NCBI RefSeq assembly: GCF_038039215.1
Contig: NZ_JBBPCL010000001.1
Location: forward strand, 3,534,001 to 3,598,000
Direction of reading: 5' to 3'
DNA from: Pseudonocardia sp. T1-2H
GTDB lineage: Bacteria > Actinomycetota > Actinomycetes > Mycobacteriales > Pseudonocardiaceae
Length of the DNA: 64,000 nt
Positions 9,065-50,403 of this stretch are shown here, piece after piece (position 1 is the first letter of the stretch; the number at the start of each line of letters is the position of its first letter). The position numbers were made by a program, and so were the translations under genes. The notes under the pieces were generated by a model, which worked only from the letters and a program-made list of their open reading frames with translations, ran no database searches and was not told the DNA's origin.

Positions 9065-9528
9065 CCGTGCCGACGCCTCCCTCCGGCGCTCATGCGGCCG
9101 ACCCGGCCCGGCGCGCCGCAGCACCCGTGGGTCCCGCGGCGGACGCCGCCTCGGTGGGTGACCTGCTGGGGAACGTGACCCGGGACCTGTCGACCCTGAT
9201 GCGCCAGGAGCTCGCCCTCGCCCAGGCCGAGCTCAAACAGGAGGCCACCAAGACCGGCAAGGCCGCCGGAGCCTTCGGCGGCGCCGGCTTCGCCGCCTGG
9301 TTCCTCGTCCTGTTCCTGTCCCTGGCCCTGTGGGCCGGTCTGTCCAACCTCATGCACCCCGGCTGGGCCGCCCTCATCGTCGCCGCGATCTGGGCCGTCA
9401 TCGCCGGGATCCTCTACACCACCGGCCGCGCCAAGTTCCGCGAGGTCCACCCCAAACCCGAACGCACCGTCGACACGCTCGGCCAGGTTCCCGACGCCCT
9501 CAAGGGCAACCGAGGAGGCACCCCGTGA
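9061..9528 (+). CDS. Actinobacterial holin-X (phage holin family) membrane protein
   Basis: 155 residues matching the actinobacterial Holin-X family. Despite the name, these are chromosomal two-helix membrane proteins and not phage lysis proteins. Residues about 37-66 (LGNVTRDLSTLMRQELALAQ onward) are an amphipathic helix. Two membrane segments follow at about 79-100 (GFAAWFLVLFLSLALWAGL) and 108-124 (AALIVAAIWAVIAGIL). The C-terminus is cytoplasmic and basic. ATGA and GTGA overlaps join it to both neighbours, so the three products are probably made in fixed ratio. A role in envelope stress is inferred from the promoter. Confidence 0.88.
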   Translation: MTVPTPPSGAHAADPARRAAAPVGPAADAASVGDLLGNVTRDLSTLMRQELALAQAELKQEATKTGKAAGAFGGAGFAAWFLVLFLSLALWAGLSNLMHPGWAALIVAAIWAVIAGILYTTGRAKFREVHPKPERTVDTLGQVPDALKGNRGGTP

Positions 9529-10253
9529 CCACCCCCGACGATCCCGACCAGATCCGCCGCGACATCGAACGCACCCAGGCCGACCTCAGCAGCGACGTCA
9601 ACGCCTTCGCCGACAAGGTCAGCCCCGGCCGCATCGTCGAACGCCGGGTCGACCGCGCCAAGGCCACGGTCGGCCGGGTCAAGGACACCATCATGGGCAG
9701 CGACCCCCGGGCCTCGGCCCAGCACACCGGCCGCCACGTCGCCGACGCCGTCACCGGCACCGCCTCCACCGCGGCGGGCACCGTGTCCGACGTGGCCTCC
9801 ACAGCGGCGGGCACCGTGTCCGACGTGGCCTCCACAGCGGCGGGCACCGTGTCCGACGTGGCCTCCACCGCCGCGCAGACCGTGCAGGAGGCTCCGCGCG
9901 TCGTGCGCCGCCAAGCCCGGGGCAACCCCCTCGCGGCCGGGCTCATCGCCTTCGGCGCCGGCTGGCTGATCTCCTCCCTGCTCCCGGCCACCCGCCGCGA
10001 ACAGGAACTCGCCGAACAGGTCAAGGACCACGCCGGGGAGCTGACCCAGCCCCTCGCCGACGCCGCCGAACAAGCCCTCGGACAGGTCAGGGGCAACCTG
10101 ACCGAACCCGTCCAACAGGCCGTCGACCAGGTCAGGTCCACCGCCACCGAGGCCGGCCAGACCGTCGCCGAGGAAAGCCGCTCCGCGGTCGAACAGGTCA
10201 AGGAGCAGGCCACCGACTCCGCCGGCACGATCAAGCAGAACTCGCCTGGATGA
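9525..10253 (+). CDS. DUF3618 domain protein with 11-residue repeats
   Basis: 242 residues. The N-terminal DUF3618 motif is IRRDIERTQADLSSDVNAFA. The middle has three tandem copies of ASTAAGTVSDV, an 11-residue period that suits a right-handed amphipathic helix lying on a membrane. One membrane segment follows (NPLAAGLIAFGAGWLISSLL, about residues 134-153), then a long Gln/Glu/Ala coiled coil. GTG 9525 overlaps the holin-X stop. DUF3618 proteins are common in actinomycetes and their function is not established; this operon suggests a membrane-shielding complex (inference). Confidence 0.88.
   Translation: MTTPDDPDQIRRDIERTQADLSSDVNAFADKVSPGRIVERRVDRAKATVGRVKDTIMGSDPRASAQHTGRHVADAVTGTASTAAGTVSDVASTAAGTVSDVASTAAGTVSDVASTAAQTVQEAPRVVRRQARGNPLAAGLIAFGAGWLISSLLPATRREQELAEQVKDHAGELTQPLADAAEQALGQVRGNLTEPVQQAVDQVRSTATEAGQTVAEESRSAVEQVKEQATDSAGTIKQNSPG
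9762..9860 (+). repeat. Three tandem 33-bp repeats inside the DUF3618 gene
   Basis: Units at 9762-9794, 9795-9827 and 9828-9860. Units 2 and 3 are identical, unit 1 differs in two bases, and a degraded fourth copy follows. Each unit encodes 11 residues, so gain or loss of copies keeps the frame. Confidence 0.95.
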
Positions 10254-44098: not shown

Positions 44099-45745
44099 TC
44101 AGTGGTGGGACACCCCCTCCACACCCGCCCCGGTCAGCGAGCGCACCTCCATCTCCGCGAACTTGCCCTCGTCCGCGCGCTCCTTCGACAGCACTGTGCC
44201 GAGGTAGCCGAGCAGGAACGACAGCGGGATCGAGACCAGGCCGGGGTTGTCCAGCGGGAACCAGTGGAAGTCCACGCCCTGCAGCATCGACGGGCTCCGG
44301 CCCGTCGCCGCGTCCACCGGCTTGCCCGAGACCACCGGCGAGAAGATGATCAGGATCAGGGTGATCCCGAGACCGCCGTAGATGCTCCACAGCGCGCCCT
44401 GGGTGTTGAACCGCTTCCAGAACAGCGAGTAGAGGATCGTCGGCAGGTTCGCCGAGGCCGCGACCGCGAACGCCAGCGCCACGAGGAACGCGATGTTCTG
44501 GCCGTTGGCCAGGATGCCGCCGAGGATGGCGACGATCCCGATGACCACCGCGGTCCGCCGGGCCACCTTGACCTCGGTCTGCTGCTCGTCCTGGACGTGG
44601 CCGTGCTTGATCACGTTGATGTAGATGTCGTGCGCGAACGACGCCGACGCCGTGATCGTCAGGCCCGCGACGACCGCGAGGATGGTCGCGAACGCGACGG
44701 CCGCGATCAGGCCCAGCAGCACCGTGCCGCCCAGCTCGTAGGCCAGCAGCGGGGCGGCGGAGTTGGCCGCGCCGGGCGCCTTCTTGATCGCGTCCGGCCC
44801 CACCAGCGCACCCGCGCCGTAGCCCAGCACCAGCGTGAACAGGTAGAACAGGCCGATCAGCCAGATCGCCCAGACCACCGAGCGGCGGGCCTCCTTGGCC
44901 GTGGGCACGGTGTAGAAGCGCATCAGGATGTGCGGCAGGCCCGCCGTCCCGAGCACGAGGGCGAGGCCGAGCGAGACGAAGTCCAGCTTCGTCAGCCCGG
45001 ACTTGCCGTACTGGGCGCCGGGGCTGAGCAGCTTCTCCCCCGTCGCGCCCGCGCGCTCGACCGCGCTGCCCAACAGCGAGGAGAGGTTGAACTTGAACAG
45101 GGTGAGCACCCAGACCGTCATGACGGCGGCCCCGATGATCAGCAGCACCGCCTTGATGATCTGCACCCAGGTCGTGCCGCGCATGCCGCCGATCAGCACG
45201 TAGGCGATCATCAGCGCGCCGACGATCGCGATGACGACCGACTGGCCGGCCTTGCTCTTGATGTCCAACAGCAGCGCCACGAGGCCACCGGCGCCGGCCA
45301 TCTGCGCGAGCAGGTAGAAGAACGACACGGCCAGCGTCGACGTGGCGGCCGCGGCGCGGACGGGACGCTGCCGCATCCGGAAGGCCAGGACGTCGCCCAT
45401 CGTGTACTTGCCGGTGTTGCGCAGCAGCTCCGCGACCAGCAGGAGCGCCACGAGCCAGGCGACGAGGAAGCCGATCGAGTACAGGAAGCCGTCGTAGCCG
45501 TAGAGCGCGATCGCCCCGGCGATGCCGAGGAAGGAGGCGGCGGACAGGTAGTCGCCGGAGATCGCGATGCCGTTCTGCGGACCGGTGAACCCGCCGCCCG
45601 CGGTGTAGAAGTCCGACGCGCCGCTGCTGGCCTTCTTGCTGACCGCGATGACGATGCCGAGCGTGATGACGACGAACGCGCCGAAGATGCTGATGTTCAG
45701 GATCGGGCTGCTGCCCTCGACCCCCGGGGTCTGCGCGAGGATCAT
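44099..45745 (-). CDS. actP: Cation/acetate symporter (SSS family, ActP-like)
   Basis: 548-residue sodium/solute symporter with about 13 membrane helices. Family signatures are DFYTAGGGFTGPQNGIAISG, DYLSAASFLGIAGAIALYGY, GLPHILMRFYTVPTAKEAR and FATILAVVAGLTITASASFA. ActP takes up acetate and other short carboxylates with Na+ or H+. Its ATG overlaps the stop of the DUF485 gene (ATGA), the conserved yjcH-actP arrangement. Three CCGTTCGTC boxes upstream of the DUF485 gene suggest LytTR control. The pyruvate oxidase gene about 4 kb away would produce acetate. Confidence 0.93.
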   Translation of the reverse strand: MILAQTPGVEGSSPILNISIFGAFVVITLGIVIAVSKKASSGASDFYTAGGGFTGPQNGIAISGDYLSAASFLGIAGAIALYGYDGFLYSIGFLVAWLVALLLVAELLRNTGKYTMGDVLAFRMRQRPVRAAAATSTLAVSFFYLLAQMAGAGGLVALLLDIKSKAGQSVVIAIVGALMIAYVLIGGMRGTTWVQIIKAVLLIIGAAVMTVWVLTLFKFNLSSLLGSAVERAGATGEKLLSPGAQYGKSGLTKLDFVSLGLALVLGTAGLPHILMRFYTVPTAKEARRSVVWAIWLIGLFYLFTLVLGYGAGALVGPDAIKKAPGAANSAAPLLAYELGGTVLLGLIAAVAFATILAVVAGLTITASASFAHDIYINVIKHGHVQDEQQTEVKVARRTAVVIGIVAILGGILANGQNIAFLVALAFAVAASANLPTILYSLFWKRFNTQGALWSIYGGLGITLILIIFSPVVSGKPVDAATGRSPSMLQGVDFHWFPLDNPGLVSIPLSFLLGYLGTVLSKERADEGKFAEMEVRSLTGAGVEGVSHH

Positions 45746-46312: not shown

Positions 46313-47977
46313 TCAAGGGGTGCGCGTCTCGTCGAGGTGCAGGCGCAGCATGGTGGACTCCGCGCCCGGCGGCGCGTCGTCCGCCAGGGACACCAGGATC
46401 ATCGTCAGGAACGCCAGCGGCACGGACCACAGCGCGGGCTGGCCCAGCAGCAGCGCGGTCAGCCCCGGTTCCGGCCGCAGCAGCAGGCTCGCCCCCATCA
46501 CCCCGGCGGAGGAGAGCAGCCCCACGGTCATCCCGACGAACGCCCCGCGCGGCGTCAGCCGCCGCCACCAGATCCCGAGCACCAGCAGCGGGCAGAACGT
46601 CGACGCCGCGACGGCGAAGGCGGACGTGACGACCGCGCCCACGTCGATCCGGACGGCGAGCAGCGCGAGCGGCACGACCACGGCGGCCGCGACGATCGCG
46701 CTCACCCGCAGCCTGCGCAGCCCGCCGGGCAGCAGGTCGTGCGCCACCGCGCCGGCCAGCGCGAGGACGAGGCCCAGCGAGGTCGCGAGGAACGCCGCGA
46801 ACGCCCCCGCGGTGAGCAGCGCGGTGAAGACGGTGCCGGCCACGCCGCCGTCGACCCGGCTCGGCAGTGCGACGACCGCGGTGTCCGTCGCGCCGGAGAG
46901 GTACAGCTCCGGCAGCAGGATCCCGCCGAGCAGCCCGTACACGGCCGGGAACAGGTAGAACGTGCCGAGCAGGCCGACGGTGATCGCGGCCGTCCGGCGG
47001 GCGGCGCGGCCGTCCGGGTTGGTGTGGAAGCGGACGATGACATGGGGCAGGCCCATGGTGCCCAGCGCCGTCGCCACCAGCACCGACCAGGTGGCCAGCA
47101 GCGGGTGGCCGGACCCGTTGTCGAGCAGCGGGCGCTGCCACGGTTCGCTGCCCGGCAGCGCCACCCCGCGGATCTCCGGCACCCGTCCGCCCGCCGGGAA
47201 GATCCAGCGCCCGTCCTCCGGCGCGACGTGCTCGCCCGGGCCCAGCGTGCGCGGGACGCCGTCCGCCACGACCGTGATCGGCTCGCGGACCTCGAGCCGG
47301 GTGTCCAGCCGGAACTGGACCTCGGTGGCCGCCGGGAACCGGCTGTACTCGGCGGGGTGCAGCGCCTCCCGGCGGGTGTCCGCGCCCACGGCGAGCAGCA
47401 GCCAGACCGCCGGGACGATGAACAGGACGAGCTTGAGCACGAACTGGAAGGCCTGGACGTACGTCGCCGCGCGCATCCCGCCGAGCGCCAGGGTGATGGC
47501 CACGGACGCCCCGGCCACGACGACGCCGACCCAGTACGGCGTGCCGCCCACGACCGTCAGCACCTGCCCCGCCGCCGTGAACTGCGGGACCAGGTAGAGC
47601 CCGGCGATCACCAGCACCACCAGCGCGCTGAACCGGCGCAGCCGTGGCGAGCCCAGCCGGGCCTCGGCGAAGTCCGGGACGGTCAGTGCGCCCGTCCGGC
47701 GCATCGGCGCGGCGACCAGCACGAGCATCAGCAGGTACCCCGCGGTGAACCCGACCGGGTACCAGAGCGCGCCCACCCCGTTCTTGACGACGAGCCCCGC
47801 GACCCCGAGGAACGACGCCGCGGACAGGTACTCGCCGGAGACGGCCGCGGCGTTGAGGGTGGGCGAGATGCGCCGGGACGCGACGAGGAAGTCCGAGGTG
47901 GTGCGCAGGGTGGCGATCCCACGGGCCCCGATCAGCAGCGTCGCCAGGATGACAGGGAGGGCGGCGAGGGCGATCAC
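46313..47977 (-). CDS. Sodium/solute symporter (SSS family), monocarboxylate type
   Basis: 554-residue symporter related to ActP: DFLVASRRISPTLNAAAVSG, EYLSAASFLGVAGLVVKNGV, GLPHVIVRFHTNPDGRAARR and FAAFLATSLGLVLALAGAVA. It differs from the 44099 gene by a long extracytoplasmic insert near residues 225-295 (LDTRLEVREPITVVADGVPR region). Likely substrates are acetate, pyruvate or similar acids. GTG 47977 forms a GTGA overlap with the small membrane gene. Its operon also holds the histidine kinase and LytTR regulator, so expression probably responds to the transported acid. Confidence 0.9.
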   Translation of the reverse strand: MIALAALPVILATLLIGARGIATLRTTSDFLVASRRISPTLNAAAVSGEYLSAASFLGVAGLVVKNGVGALWYPVGFTAGYLLMLVLVAAPMRRTGALTVPDFAEARLGSPRLRRFSALVVLVIAGLYLVPQFTAAGQVLTVVGGTPYWVGVVVAGASVAITLALGGMRAATYVQAFQFVLKLVLFIVPAVWLLLAVGADTRREALHPAEYSRFPAATEVQFRLDTRLEVREPITVVADGVPRTLGPGEHVAPEDGRWIFPAGGRVPEIRGVALPGSEPWQRPLLDNGSGHPLLATWSVLVATALGTMGLPHVIVRFHTNPDGRAARRTAAITVGLLGTFYLFPAVYGLLGGILLPELYLSGATDTAVVALPSRVDGGVAGTVFTALLTAGAFAAFLATSLGLVLALAGAVAHDLLPGGLRRLRVSAIVAAAVVVPLALLAVRIDVGAVVTSAFAVAASTFCPLLVLGIWWRRLTPRGAFVGMTVGLLSSAGVMGASLLLRPEPGLTALLLGQPALWSVPLAFLTMILVSLADDAPPGAESTMLRLHLDETRTP

Positions 47978-48318
47978 CGTTCGGTCTGCTCCGCCCGCCG
48001 CAGCTGCCACCACGCCAGGAGGGCGAGGAACGGGTACGGCAGCACCGCCACCGCGAGCCACGCCACCGGCACGTCCGCGACACGGAGCGCGAGCAGCACC
48101 GAAGTGAGGTGCAGCAGCGCGGGAAGCCCCACCAGCAGCGCCGCCCCGCCGGTCAGGGAGAAGGCGGCCCAGCGGAGCTGCGTGCGCCGGATCCGCTCGG
48201 CCCGCGCGCGCTCGGACTCGGTGAGCCGCGGCGGCGGCACCGCGATCCCGCCCCGGCGGGCCGTCAGCACGACGGCGGTCTGCGGGCTCGTCACGGTGAC
48301 CCGGCGCTGGCGGCTCAC
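47974..48318 (-). CDS. Small two-helix membrane protein, symporter partner
   Basis: 114 residues with two membrane helices (AAFSLTGGAALLVGLPALLH; VPVAWLAVAVLPYPFLALLA) after a basic cytoplasmic N-terminus, ending AWWQLRRAEQTER. Topology and position before an SSS symporter resemble DUF485, but the sequence is not clearly that family. GTGA overlaps join it to the LytTR gene upstream and the symporter downstream. It is probably an accessory subunit (inference). Confidence 0.75.
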   Translation of the reverse strand: MSRQRRVTVTSPQTAVVLTARRGGIAVPPPRLTESERARAERIRRTQLRWAAFSLTGGAALLVGLPALLHLTSVLLALRVADVPVAWLAVAVLPYPFLALLAWWQLRRAEQTER

Positions 48319-49103
48319 CGGGCCGCCCCGCCGAGCTCGCCGCGGGTGGCCGCCTCCAGGAGCAGGTCCCGCAGCTGACGGGCGTGCCGGCGGCTCACCG
48401 GGACGTCCCCGGCGTCGGTGTGCGCGAGCAGGCCGCCGCCGGAGTCGCTGCGCAACTCCTGCACGGCCCGGACGGCGAGCAGGAACCCGCGGTGCACCCG
48501 CACGTACCCGACCCCGCCCCAGTGCTCCTCGAGCCGGGAGATCGGGATGCGGACGAGATGCGCGTCGTCCCGGGTGTGCAGCCGCACGTAGTCCCCGTTG
48601 GCCTCGGCGAACCGGACGTCGTCCCGGCGCACCCAGCGGGTCCGCCCGGCGAGCTCGACGGGCACGGCCGCCAGCTCGTCGAGGGCGGGCGTCTCGGGCT
48701 CCGCGCCCCCGGCGGCGGGGGCCGCGACCCGGCGCACCCGGCCCAGCGCCGCGTCCAGGCGCTCGGCCGAGACGGGTTTGAGCAGGTAGTCCAGCGCGCC
48801 GACGCCGTACGCGGACACGGCGTGCTCCTCGAACGCCGTGACGAAGACGATCTCGGGCGGATCAGTCATCCGCGCCAGCAGCGAGGCCAACTCGAGGCCG
48901 TCCATGCCCGGCATCGAGATGTCCAGGAACACCGCGTCCAGCCGCTCCGTACCCTGCAGGATCCGCAGCGCGGACACCGCGTCCCCCGCCCGGAGGACCT
49001 CGCGGACGCACGGGGCCGCGGCCAGCAGCCGGCACAGCTCGTCGAGGGCGGGGGCGACGTCGTCGACGGCCAGCACGCGCAACCTCACGGCAGCGGGGTT
49101 CAC
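48315..49103 (-). CDS. LytTR-family response regulator
   Basis: 262 residues. The receiver domain (8-125) has the acidic pair in VLAVDDVAP, phosphoacceptor Asp61 in LDAVFLDISMPGMDG, and DYLLKPVSAERLD with the conserved Lys. The DNA-binding LytTR domain (about 155-258) shows VRFAEANGDYVRLHTRDDAH, GYVRVHRGFLLAVRAV and VPVSRRHARQLRDLL. It receives phosphate from the kinase encoded upstream. GTG 49103 lies four bases after GGAGG, which is itself the end of the last 39-bp repeat. Likely targets are the boxes at 46203-46243. Confidence 0.93.
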   Translation of the reverse strand: MNPAAVRLRVLAVDDVAPALDELCRLLAAAPCVREVLRAGDAVSALRILQGTERLDAVFLDISMPGMDGLELASLLARMTDPPEIVFVTAFEEHAVSAYGVGALDYLLKPVSAERLDAALGRVRRVAAPAAGGAEPETPALDELAAVPVELAGRTRWVRRDDVRFAEANGDYVRLHTRDDAHLVRIPISRLEEHWGGVGYVRVHRGFLLAVRAVQELRSDSGGGLLAHTDAGDVPVSRRHARQLRDLLLEAATRGELGGAAR

Positions 49104-49255
49104 GGCGCCTCCGCGGGGAGGAGCACATCGGCGGTGTTCGACGGCGCCTCCGCGGGACGGAACACGTCGGCGGTGTTCGACGGCGCCTCCGCGGGACGGA
49201 ACACGTCGGCGGTGTTCGACGGCGCCTCCGCGGGACGGAACACGTCGGCGCTCAT
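49100..49255 (-). CDS. 51-residue peptide of 13-residue repeats, coupled between kinase and regulator
   Basis: ATG 49255 overlaps the kinase stop (ATGA) and the TGA at 49102-49100 overlaps the regulator GTG (GTGA). The product is MSADVFRPAEAP, then SNTADVFRPAEAP twice, then SNTADVLLPAEAP. It has no membrane helix or signal peptide; it is acidic, Pro/Ala-rich and probably extended. Each 39-bp unit contains GGAGG and the last one serves as the regulator's ribosome site. The exact fit to both neighbours argues for real translation. Alternatively it is only a translational bridge created by repeat expansion. Not recognised from any family. Confidence 0.65.
   Translation of the reverse strand: MSADVFRPAEAPSNTADVFRPAEAPSNTADVFRPAEAPSNTADVLLPAEAP
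49103..49251 (-). repeat. Nearly four tandem 39-bp repeats
   Basis: Units at 49103-49141, 49142-49180 and 49181-49219, plus a partial unit from 49220. Units 2 and 3 are identical; unit 1 differs at about four positions. The unit length is a multiple of three, so copy-number change keeps the small frame and both overlaps. Confidence 0.97.
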
Positions 49256-50403
49256 GACGCGACGACCCCCGGCTGGAACCGCGGCACCCGCACGACGATC
49301 CGGGTCCCGGCTCCCTCGGCCGTCTCGATGACCAGGCCGTACTGCGGCCCGTAGACCGCGCGCAGCCGCCGGTCCACGTTCGCCAGCGCCAGGCCCGAGC
49401 CCGACCCGACGCCGGCCAGCACCGCGCGGGCGAGCTCGGGATCCATCCCCGGCCCGTCGTCCTCGACGGCGATCACGCAGTCCGTGCCCTGGGCCTCGCC
49501 GCTGACCTGCACCGATCCTCCGCCCTCGACCCGTTCGACGCCGTGCTGCACCGCGTTCTCCACCAGCGGCTGCAGCGCCAGGAACGGCACGGCCACCGGC
49601 AACACCTCCGGCGCGATCCGCACCTGCACCCGCAGCCGGTCCCCGAGCACGGCCCGGGCCAGCGCGAGGTAGGCCTCGATCGCGAGGAACTCCCCGGCGA
49701 CGGTCGTGTACTCACCGCGCCGTGCGAGATTGTGCCGGGTGTACTCCGCGAAGTCCCCGATGAGGTCTCGCGCCCGGTCGGGGTCCGAGCCGACGAACGC
49801 ACCGATCGTCGTCAGCGCGTTGTAGACGAAGTGTGGGGAGATCTCCGCGCGCAGGGCGCGCAGCTCCGCGGCCTCGGCCGCCCCGGCCGACGACTCGAGC
49901 CGCCCGCGGACCAGCGCCTCCCCCACCCACCTCGCGGCCTGCCGCGCGGCGGCTGCCCGGACGTCCCCGACGACGACGAGCACGCCGGCCAGCTCGTCCC
50001 TGACCTGCAGTGGGAGCGCGAGGACGCGCCCTGCCCGGCCTGCCCGGTGCCCGTCGCGGCGGACGTGCGCGACGAGCTCGGCGGCGTCCTCGGCCGGGCG
50101 TCCGGACCAGACCGGCGGGTCCCGGAGATCGGCGAGGCCCACGGCGTCCGCCTCCAGCAGGCCACGCAGCCGCCGCGCCGCGGACACCGCGCGGTCCCCG
50201 CGGAGCCCGTCGCGCAGGTCCTCGGCGACCCTGCCGCCGACGGCGAGGACCGCCATCGCCTCGTCCGCCCCGCTGCGGCCGCGCCGTGCGCCGAACCAGC
50301 CGCGACGACGGCGGGGTGCGGTGGTGTCCTCGAGCCGGGCCGGGTCCTCCGCGGCGACGACCGGTGAGCCGGCGGTGGGGGATCCGGCGGCGTCGGCGAT
50401 CAC
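49252..50403 (-). CDS. LytS/YehU-type sensor histidine kinase (soluble, GAF-like)
   Basis: 383 residues. No membrane helix was found. A GAF-like sensor region spans about 60-165 (GLLEADAVGLADLRDPPVWS, LALPLQVRDELAGVLVVVGD). The His_kinase domain has phosphoacceptor His191 in LRAEISPHFVYNALTTI, the N box LQPLVENAVQHGVERV and the G box IAVEDDGPGMDPELA. This family pairs with LytTR regulators and, in E. coli BtsS/YpdA, senses pyruvate. First gene of the five-gene operon; TAGGGT (50415-50410) ends six bases before GTG 50403, suggesting a leaderless message. Confidence 0.93.
   Translation of the reverse strand: MIADAAGSPTAGSPVVAAEDPARLEDTTAPRRRRGWFGARRGRSGADEAMAVLAVGGRVAEDLRDGLRGDRAVSAARRLRGLLEADAVGLADLRDPPVWSGRPAEDAAELVAHVRRDGHRAGRAGRVLALPLQVRDELAGVLVVVGDVRAAAARQAARWVGEALVRGRLESSAGAAEAAELRALRAEISPHFVYNALTTIGAFVGSDPDRARDLIGDFAEYTRHNLARRGEYTTVAGEFLAIEAYLALARAVLGDRLRVQVRIAPEVLPVAVPFLALQPLVENAVQHGVERVEGGGSVQVSGEAQGTDCVIAVEDDGPGMDPELARAVLAGVGSGSGLALANVDRRLRAVYGPQYGLVIETAEGAGTRIVVRVPRFQPGVVAS

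Follow-up and report, generated by a model that had tools for sequence, protein, structure and literature searches.

REP and BIME elements, which are accompanied by RAYT transposases, are short imperfect palindromes scattered through genomes beside a conserved tetranucleotide, and Rickettsia palindromic elements are in-frame palindromic repeats that reading frames accommodate internally or at their ends. Mycobacterial interspersed repetitive units (MIRUs) were reportedly described by Supply et al. in 1997. A 2025 review presents MIRUs as small repeats, apparently mobile, whose insertion at a start codon places an internal ORF in -4 nt coupling with the gene (PMC12548453). Other articles give units of 46-101 bp at 41 M. 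tuberculosis loci, 12 of which are variable (PMC3914561), and a region between senX3 and regX3 that has promoter activity and holds two or three MIRUs of 77 bp (PMC4213456).

The locus studied here lies in a window of 64,000 nucleotides (the whole stretch of DNA analysed) from Pseudonocardia sp. T1-2H, in which an array of repeat units separates a histidine kinase gene from a LytTR regulator gene. We read this array, with a probability of about 0.86, as a member of a dispersed family of mini-cistron repeats that settle mainly at operon stop/start overlaps and preserve coupling. Judged by the available passages, MIRUs resemble this family in being dispersed between operon genes (here 26 units at 17 sites of the genome that holds the window, G000) and in carrying a short ORF that overlaps the neighbouring stop and start at -4 nt (here RTGA stands on both sides at 68 of 99 sites, against 0.4% at random places in the same loci). 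They also vary in tandem copy number (here four units versus two at the window junction and three versus two at site L002, between species or strains), insert at start codons (here empty sites occur at murC, at a second junction compared between genomes G025 and G031, and at 28 of 30 junctions orthologous to that of the window) and have copies at a kinase-regulator junction, senX3-regX3 in mycobacteria and the LytTR pair here. An earlier note on this DNA had held that no component like it was described, which was wrong in kind: two of these articles describe MIRUs arranged in this way, a kinase-regulator junction included (PMC12548453, PMC4213456).

The differences are the unit length (38/39 bp versus 46-101 bp in PMC3914561), the host (Pseudonocardiaceae here, mycobacteria for MIRUs), and the 39-bp fused arrays and protein-end fusions found here, which the available MIRU passages do not mention. 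The repeat thus appears to work like a MIRU but is not assigned as one, since length and host set it apart and the two were compared by description. It resembles REP/BIME elements in being short and dispersed, with a possible imperfect palindrome beside a conserved tetranucleotide, but differs as a mini-cistron that is coding and coupled, and a search of its own genome gave no Y1 transposase. Like Rickettsia palindromic elements it is tolerated within or at the ends of reading frames, but its main place is the stop/start overlap between genes. Among the papers listed, titles and abstract openings of the openly accessible literature yielded no description of a repeat of this kind outside mycobacteria, which is weak evidence of absence; one article retrieved as MIRU literature (PMC3469384) matched only through the species name mirum and was discarded.

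Anatomy of the array at the kinase-regulator junction

The 51-codon micro-ORF comprises four 39-bp units and encodes a peptide of 51 residues composed of MSADVFRPAEAP, two copies of SNTADVFRPAEAP and SNTADVLLPAEAP; its start shares an ATGA with the kinase stop, and its stop shares a GTGA with the regulator start (Table 1). Every unit carries one GGAGG (CCTCC on the plus strand), those of the first three units lying at 49225-49229, 49186-49190 and 49147-49151. The earlier note had correctly given this frame with its coordinates and both four-base overlaps, had placed a GGAGG in each unit (present in four of four), and had proposed the last one as the ribosome site of the regulator, for which its position is well suited. 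No other tandem repeat in the window scores as high as this array (39 bp x 4.3, 92%, score 274; next best 207). Pfam recognises Response_reg and LytTR in the regulator, in addition to the two kinase domains, and the 51-aa micro-ORF had no match in Pfam or NCBIfam.

The final junction of the array reads GCGCC-GTGA-ACCCC and the inner junctions read GCGCC-GTCGA-ACACC. One added C (GTGA versus GTCGA) turns a stop/start into an open frame and 38 bp into 39 bp, a change that probably went from GTGA to GTCGA.

Table 1. Features of the kinase-regulator region in the window, with positions of the repeat units in the genome
Feature	Window position	Genome position	Strand	Basis
Sensor histidine kinase (His_kinase + HATPase_c)	49252..50403		-	Pfam + ORF
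51-codon fused micro-ORF, four repeat units	49100..49255		-	ORF + tandem repeat
Repeat unit 1, R1 match E 5.5e-10 in whole genome	49215..49250	G000:C1:3583215-3583250	-	
Repeat unit 2	49176..49211	G000:C1 3583176-3583211	-	R1 match
Repeat unit 3	49137..49172	G000:C1 3583137-3583172	-	R1 match
Repeat unit 4, match extends across regulator GTGA	49095..49133	3583095-3583133	-	R1 match
ATGA, kinase stop / micro-ORF start overlap	49252..49255		-	sequence
GTGA, micro-ORF stop / regulator start overlap	49100..49103		-	sequence
GGAGG of unit 4, Shine-Dalgarno-like, 4 nt before regulator GTG	49108..49112		-	
LytTR response regulator	48315..49103		-	Pfam
114-aa ORF, no Pfam match, 4-nt overlap with regulator	47974..48318		-	ORF
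Sodium:solute symporter family protein, downstream of pair	46313..48061		-	Pfam SSF; best NCBIfam match below cut-off

Downstream of the regulator follow, in order, the 114-aa ORF, the sodium:solute symporter, a DUF485 protein and an MctC-like ORF. The latter (44099-45745) scores 883 bits against NF058657, the NCBIfam model of the monocarboxylic acid transporter MctC (cut-off 670), and, like the DUF485 gene that precedes it, runs in the same direction as the kinase-regulator pair; these genes are a possible target operon. Elsewhere in the window a second tandem repeat (9762-9875, 33 bp x 3.5, 96%) lies in frame in an ORF at 9330-10253 on the plus strand as STAAGTVSDVA repeats, and by eye it is unrelated to the 39-bp unit.

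Distribution of the repeat and layout of its unit

The window array is one copy of a repeat family dispersed in its own genome and in relatives. R1, a sequence model of 39 positions, was built from 19 units of the own genome; these match it by construction, and the other seven of the 26 units recovered at E<1e-3 are independent finds. Outside the window array R1 gave 22 matches at this threshold. The array itself, used as query, found ten other places in the genome, and a pattern search with up to three mismatches gave nine matches, against none for the reversed-pattern control. Gene pairs flanking the copies look mutually unrelated. Two near-identical junctions about 8.6 kb apart (L044 and L046, G000:C1 2197621 and 2189063) match only the 3' half of the unit (e.g. 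CCCGCGGAGGCGCAGTCATGACC), and are perhaps a decayed copy within a duplicated stretch.

When 60 genomes were searched (the own genome and near relatives), 30 matched R1 at E<=1e-3, including 28 of the 36 from the genus (own included; the other eight had no match) and 2 of the 24 from other families of the order. Order-wide and phylum-wide runs used stricter filters, with which weak matches are lost. In the former, 24 of 397 genomes matched at E<=1e-4 (own included), 22 of them from the own family, and at least 353 had no match; in the latter, 4 of 396 matched, the own genome and three of the other 395 with one weak match each (L235-L237). These three lack RTGA flanks, look like chance coding matches and were rejected as signs of spread beyond the order. 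An exact-pattern scan across 84,980 species, each represented by a single genome, gave 39 stretches, all from Pseudonocardia, Amycolatopsis and Gandjariella, which belong to the Pseudonocardiaceae, or from unclassified actinobacterial assemblies (MAGs), with no mycobacterial record among them. A phage or plasmid vector was rejected because viral contigs held no exact-pattern match and plasmids and phages no match to the window array, and no transposase, source element or mobile carrier was found for the repeat.

For the unit itself, 110 loci yielded 169 units in 112 arrays, from which 13 arrays of identical context were dropped. The remaining 99 sites (150 units; 17 own-genome sites, 55 found with the model and 27 with the exact pattern) are not independent, since orthologous sites of sister species are counted separately. 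Their usual form, in the sites read, is a 38-bp mini-cistron (e.g. MTADVLPPTEAES and a stop) that overlaps the stop of the gene before it with its own start and the start of the gene after it with its own stop: RTGA, about 12 codons with the consensus core ADVL-x-PAEA, a GGAGG near the end, and RTGA again. RTGA was present upstream at 75 of the 99 sites and downstream at 76, compared with 3.5% and 5.7% at random places in the same loci. Flanking on both sides was seen at 12/17 own-genome, 39/55 model-found and 17/27 pattern-found sites, that is, at 51/72 when the latter are omitted.

At 31 of the 99 sites RTGA is missing on at least one side, and in some of these cases the unit extends a protein in frame. 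At L002 and L007 it is joined in frame to the beginning of the protein encoded downstream, and at L004 to the end of the one encoded upstream. At L014 no upstream gene is recognised, and the copy there resembles an upstream ORF that has a ribosome site of its own. In L113, L129 and L152, copies lacking RTGA are preceded by TCGAACACC, a linker identical to that inside the window array, and the copy in L113 can be read as the end of a frame, with SNTADVFPPSEAAS as its C-terminal tail.

Neighbouring units are spaced by 38 bp (30 pairs), 39 bp (20) or 30 bp (1), so that 50 of 51 pairs follow one of two forms. All 30 of the 38-bp pairs have RTGA between the units, and all 20 of the 39-bp pairs are open in frame, one of them with an out-of-frame RTGA; either form can thus bring a ribosome to the last RTGA. 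The longest arrays among the 99 sites have five units (L147 6253-6438, from Pseudonocardia oroxyli and also present in L128, and L115 1465-1647).

The first unit contains GGAGG at 95 of the 99 sites (68/72 without pattern-found sites), and where a downstream RTGA exists the distance from GGAGG to the next RTG is 7 nt (50 sites) or 4 nt (22 sites). Predicted pairing to the anti-Shine-Dalgarno (SD) sequence is stronger for the element than for the host's own site in 52 of 68 comparisons, equal in 1 and weaker in 15 (median -10.0 versus -7.5, p = 5e-7). At the window, the predicted values are -9.5 for the regulator site and -9.8 for the micro-ORF's own site, and the former is close to the median of -9.5 among 25 scored orthologues that lack the repeat. 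The element thus brings no predicted gain in SD strength here, a point against the reading that we favour.

Empty sites and copy number at corresponding junctions

Thirty orthologous kinase-regulator junctions, one per genome, were read from 59 genomes with a regulator match, those of L104 and L106 by eye. Units occur in two of them: the window junction of G000, with four, and that of its nearest relative G026 (regulator 97% identical), with two in the same frame. The other 28, which include G079 (89%), showed no units by reading and no R1 match at E<=0.01. The micro-ORF is therefore absent from most of the relatives read, in which the earlier note had suggested looking for it, and is in frame in the one other carrier. 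What it had said of coupling geometry held at both repeat numbers, the overlaps on both sides being retained with four units and with two. Taken as a whole, its interpretation is partly supported.

Filled and empty forms of one junction can be compared directly between murG and murC, where G025 reads ATGACC-unit-GTGACC and G031 reads GTGACC only, a clean 38-bp insertion. The 50 bp before and 26 bp after it are otherwise identical, and the MurC proteins are 96% identical; among 30 murC loci read, G025 alone had an R1 match. A second junction of the same two genomes has gained exactly 76 bp in G025, in an alignment that has a 12-bp gap elsewhere. Between G026 and the own genome (L202 versus L224), the net difference is 29 bp, not 38, and corresponds to a 32-base core between a stop and a start that are both present in the empty site; the sites compared thus place the ends of the putatively mobile unit only approximately. 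The murG-murC spacer of another species, G019 (L186), contains a short repeat of another kind, with about three copies of CGGAGCCAYAGTGC counted by eye, which is perhaps another element at the same landing place.

Copy number also changes at orthologous sites, between species or strains of uncertain relation and not within one named species. Beyond the window junction and L002 (three units, two in G026), L004 has two units versus one in L156, and L040 has one versus two in L140. Nine of the 12 sites fetched from G026 correspond to one of the 17 own-genome sites. For L006, a search of G026 and G079 hit copies of the repeat at other places, along with some short stretches unrelated to it, and yielded no empty site. 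The genes next to the copies in L108, from another genus, and L004 are apparently related (DNA identity of 71% across 1.4 kb), which may reflect an old insertion or one junction used repeatedly.

Origin of the array, competing readings and meaning

In the reading that we favour, the unit would insert mainly at stop/start overlaps inside operons. A ribosome arriving from the upstream gene would re-initiate on the unit's start, translate 12-13 codons and stop at the next RTGA. At the last RTGA it would re-initiate, the GGAGG of the unit now serving as the ribosome site of the downstream gene, and coupling would survive; as the unit has its own start, ribosome site and stop, it could be inserted without uncoupling the two genes. 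After insertion, units would multiply in tandem. In the lineage of the window, a one-base insertion probably removed the stop/start between units, which would have converted a chain of 38-bp mini-cistrons into a 39-bp in-frame array read as one ORF, and the fused array would then have changed in copy number (two versus four).

The 51-aa product could instead be a peptide of the signalling pair that binds the kinase or the regulator, as the earlier note had suggested. Its frame is translatable, with a fair predicted ribosome site, and is kept in G026, but the idea of a peptide specific to this pair does not agree with the presence of the same core between many other gene pairs, nor with its absence from 28 of 30 orthologous junctions. 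Mean positional entropy is even across codon positions 1/2/3 (0.41/0.37/0.39 over 99 sites, 0.40/0.40/0.43 over the 72 without pattern-found ones); no third-codon excess of variation appears in either set, and peptide selection is therefore not supported. No relative of the protein was detected at E<=0.001 among 756 candidates. Given the dispersal, the empty sites and the codon pattern, we discard this reading as very improbable. The units vary as two conserved blocks with a free middle of about six bases, which points to a conserved nucleotide element rather than a selected peptide, an indication that is not decisive as the copies may descend from few masters. A local minisatellite that arose once by slippage, with chance copies elsewhere, would account for the VNTR-like copy number, but is contradicted already by the dispersed copies, with matches outside the array in the own genome, in 28 of 36 genus genomes and none for the reversed pattern, and we give it next to no credence.

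The unit might also be a selected tuning cassette, in which copy number, SD strength, a hairpin or a promoter sets the regulator:kinase ratio. The predicted SD advantage over host sites agrees with this, as does a consensus hairpin, C-GCC-GA-CGY...GCG-GA-GGC-G, complete with all seven pairs in 62 of 81 distinct units, and promoter activity is reported for the MIRU-bearing senX3-regX3 region (PMC4213456). Against it, most relatives read do without the repeat. The hairpin folds only slightly better than shuffles (mean z -1.05), and compensatory changes were absent from the 19-unit alignment and limited to single cases among 103 distinct units. Sequestration of the SD by the hairpin was rejected, since the median pairing probability of GGAGG is 0.60 in the repeat and 0.60 at other GGAGG sites. 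We consider such a cassette unlikely; the hairpin is possibly a recognition feature. That feature and RTGA could serve as guides for a Y1 (RAYT/IS200-type) transposase moving a REP-like element, as 97 of 103 distinct units have the tetranucleotide beside a short imperfect hairpin with tandem GA/GA. The five Y1-positive genomes (G003, G008, G015, G020, G022) all carry the repeat, but so do 28 of 36 anyway; PF01797 was found in only 5 of 40 genus genomes and gave no match in G000 or G026, the most copy-rich of the sampled genus genomes. A Y1 enzyme was therefore rejected as the mover, and this origin appears quite improbable.

We thus return to a dispersed family of mini-cistron repeats. As a tentative proposal, to which we would give somewhat less than even odds, Pseudonocardiaceae may own a mobile mini-cistron family that is not derived from MIRUs and has converged on parasitising RTGA coupling, spreading by an undescribed route and supplying its host operons with stronger ribosome sites as well as a coupling spacer that can expand. 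The repeats of such layout that we found described are mycobacterial. If environmental actinobacteria, for which many genomes exist, harbour another family built alike, this would point to stop/start overlaps as places where tiny elements land quite generally. Filled and empty pairs (G025/G031) and copy-number pairs (G000/G026) allow the move and its cost to coupling to be studied, and the case cautions against taking repeat-built operon micro-ORFs for functional peptides.
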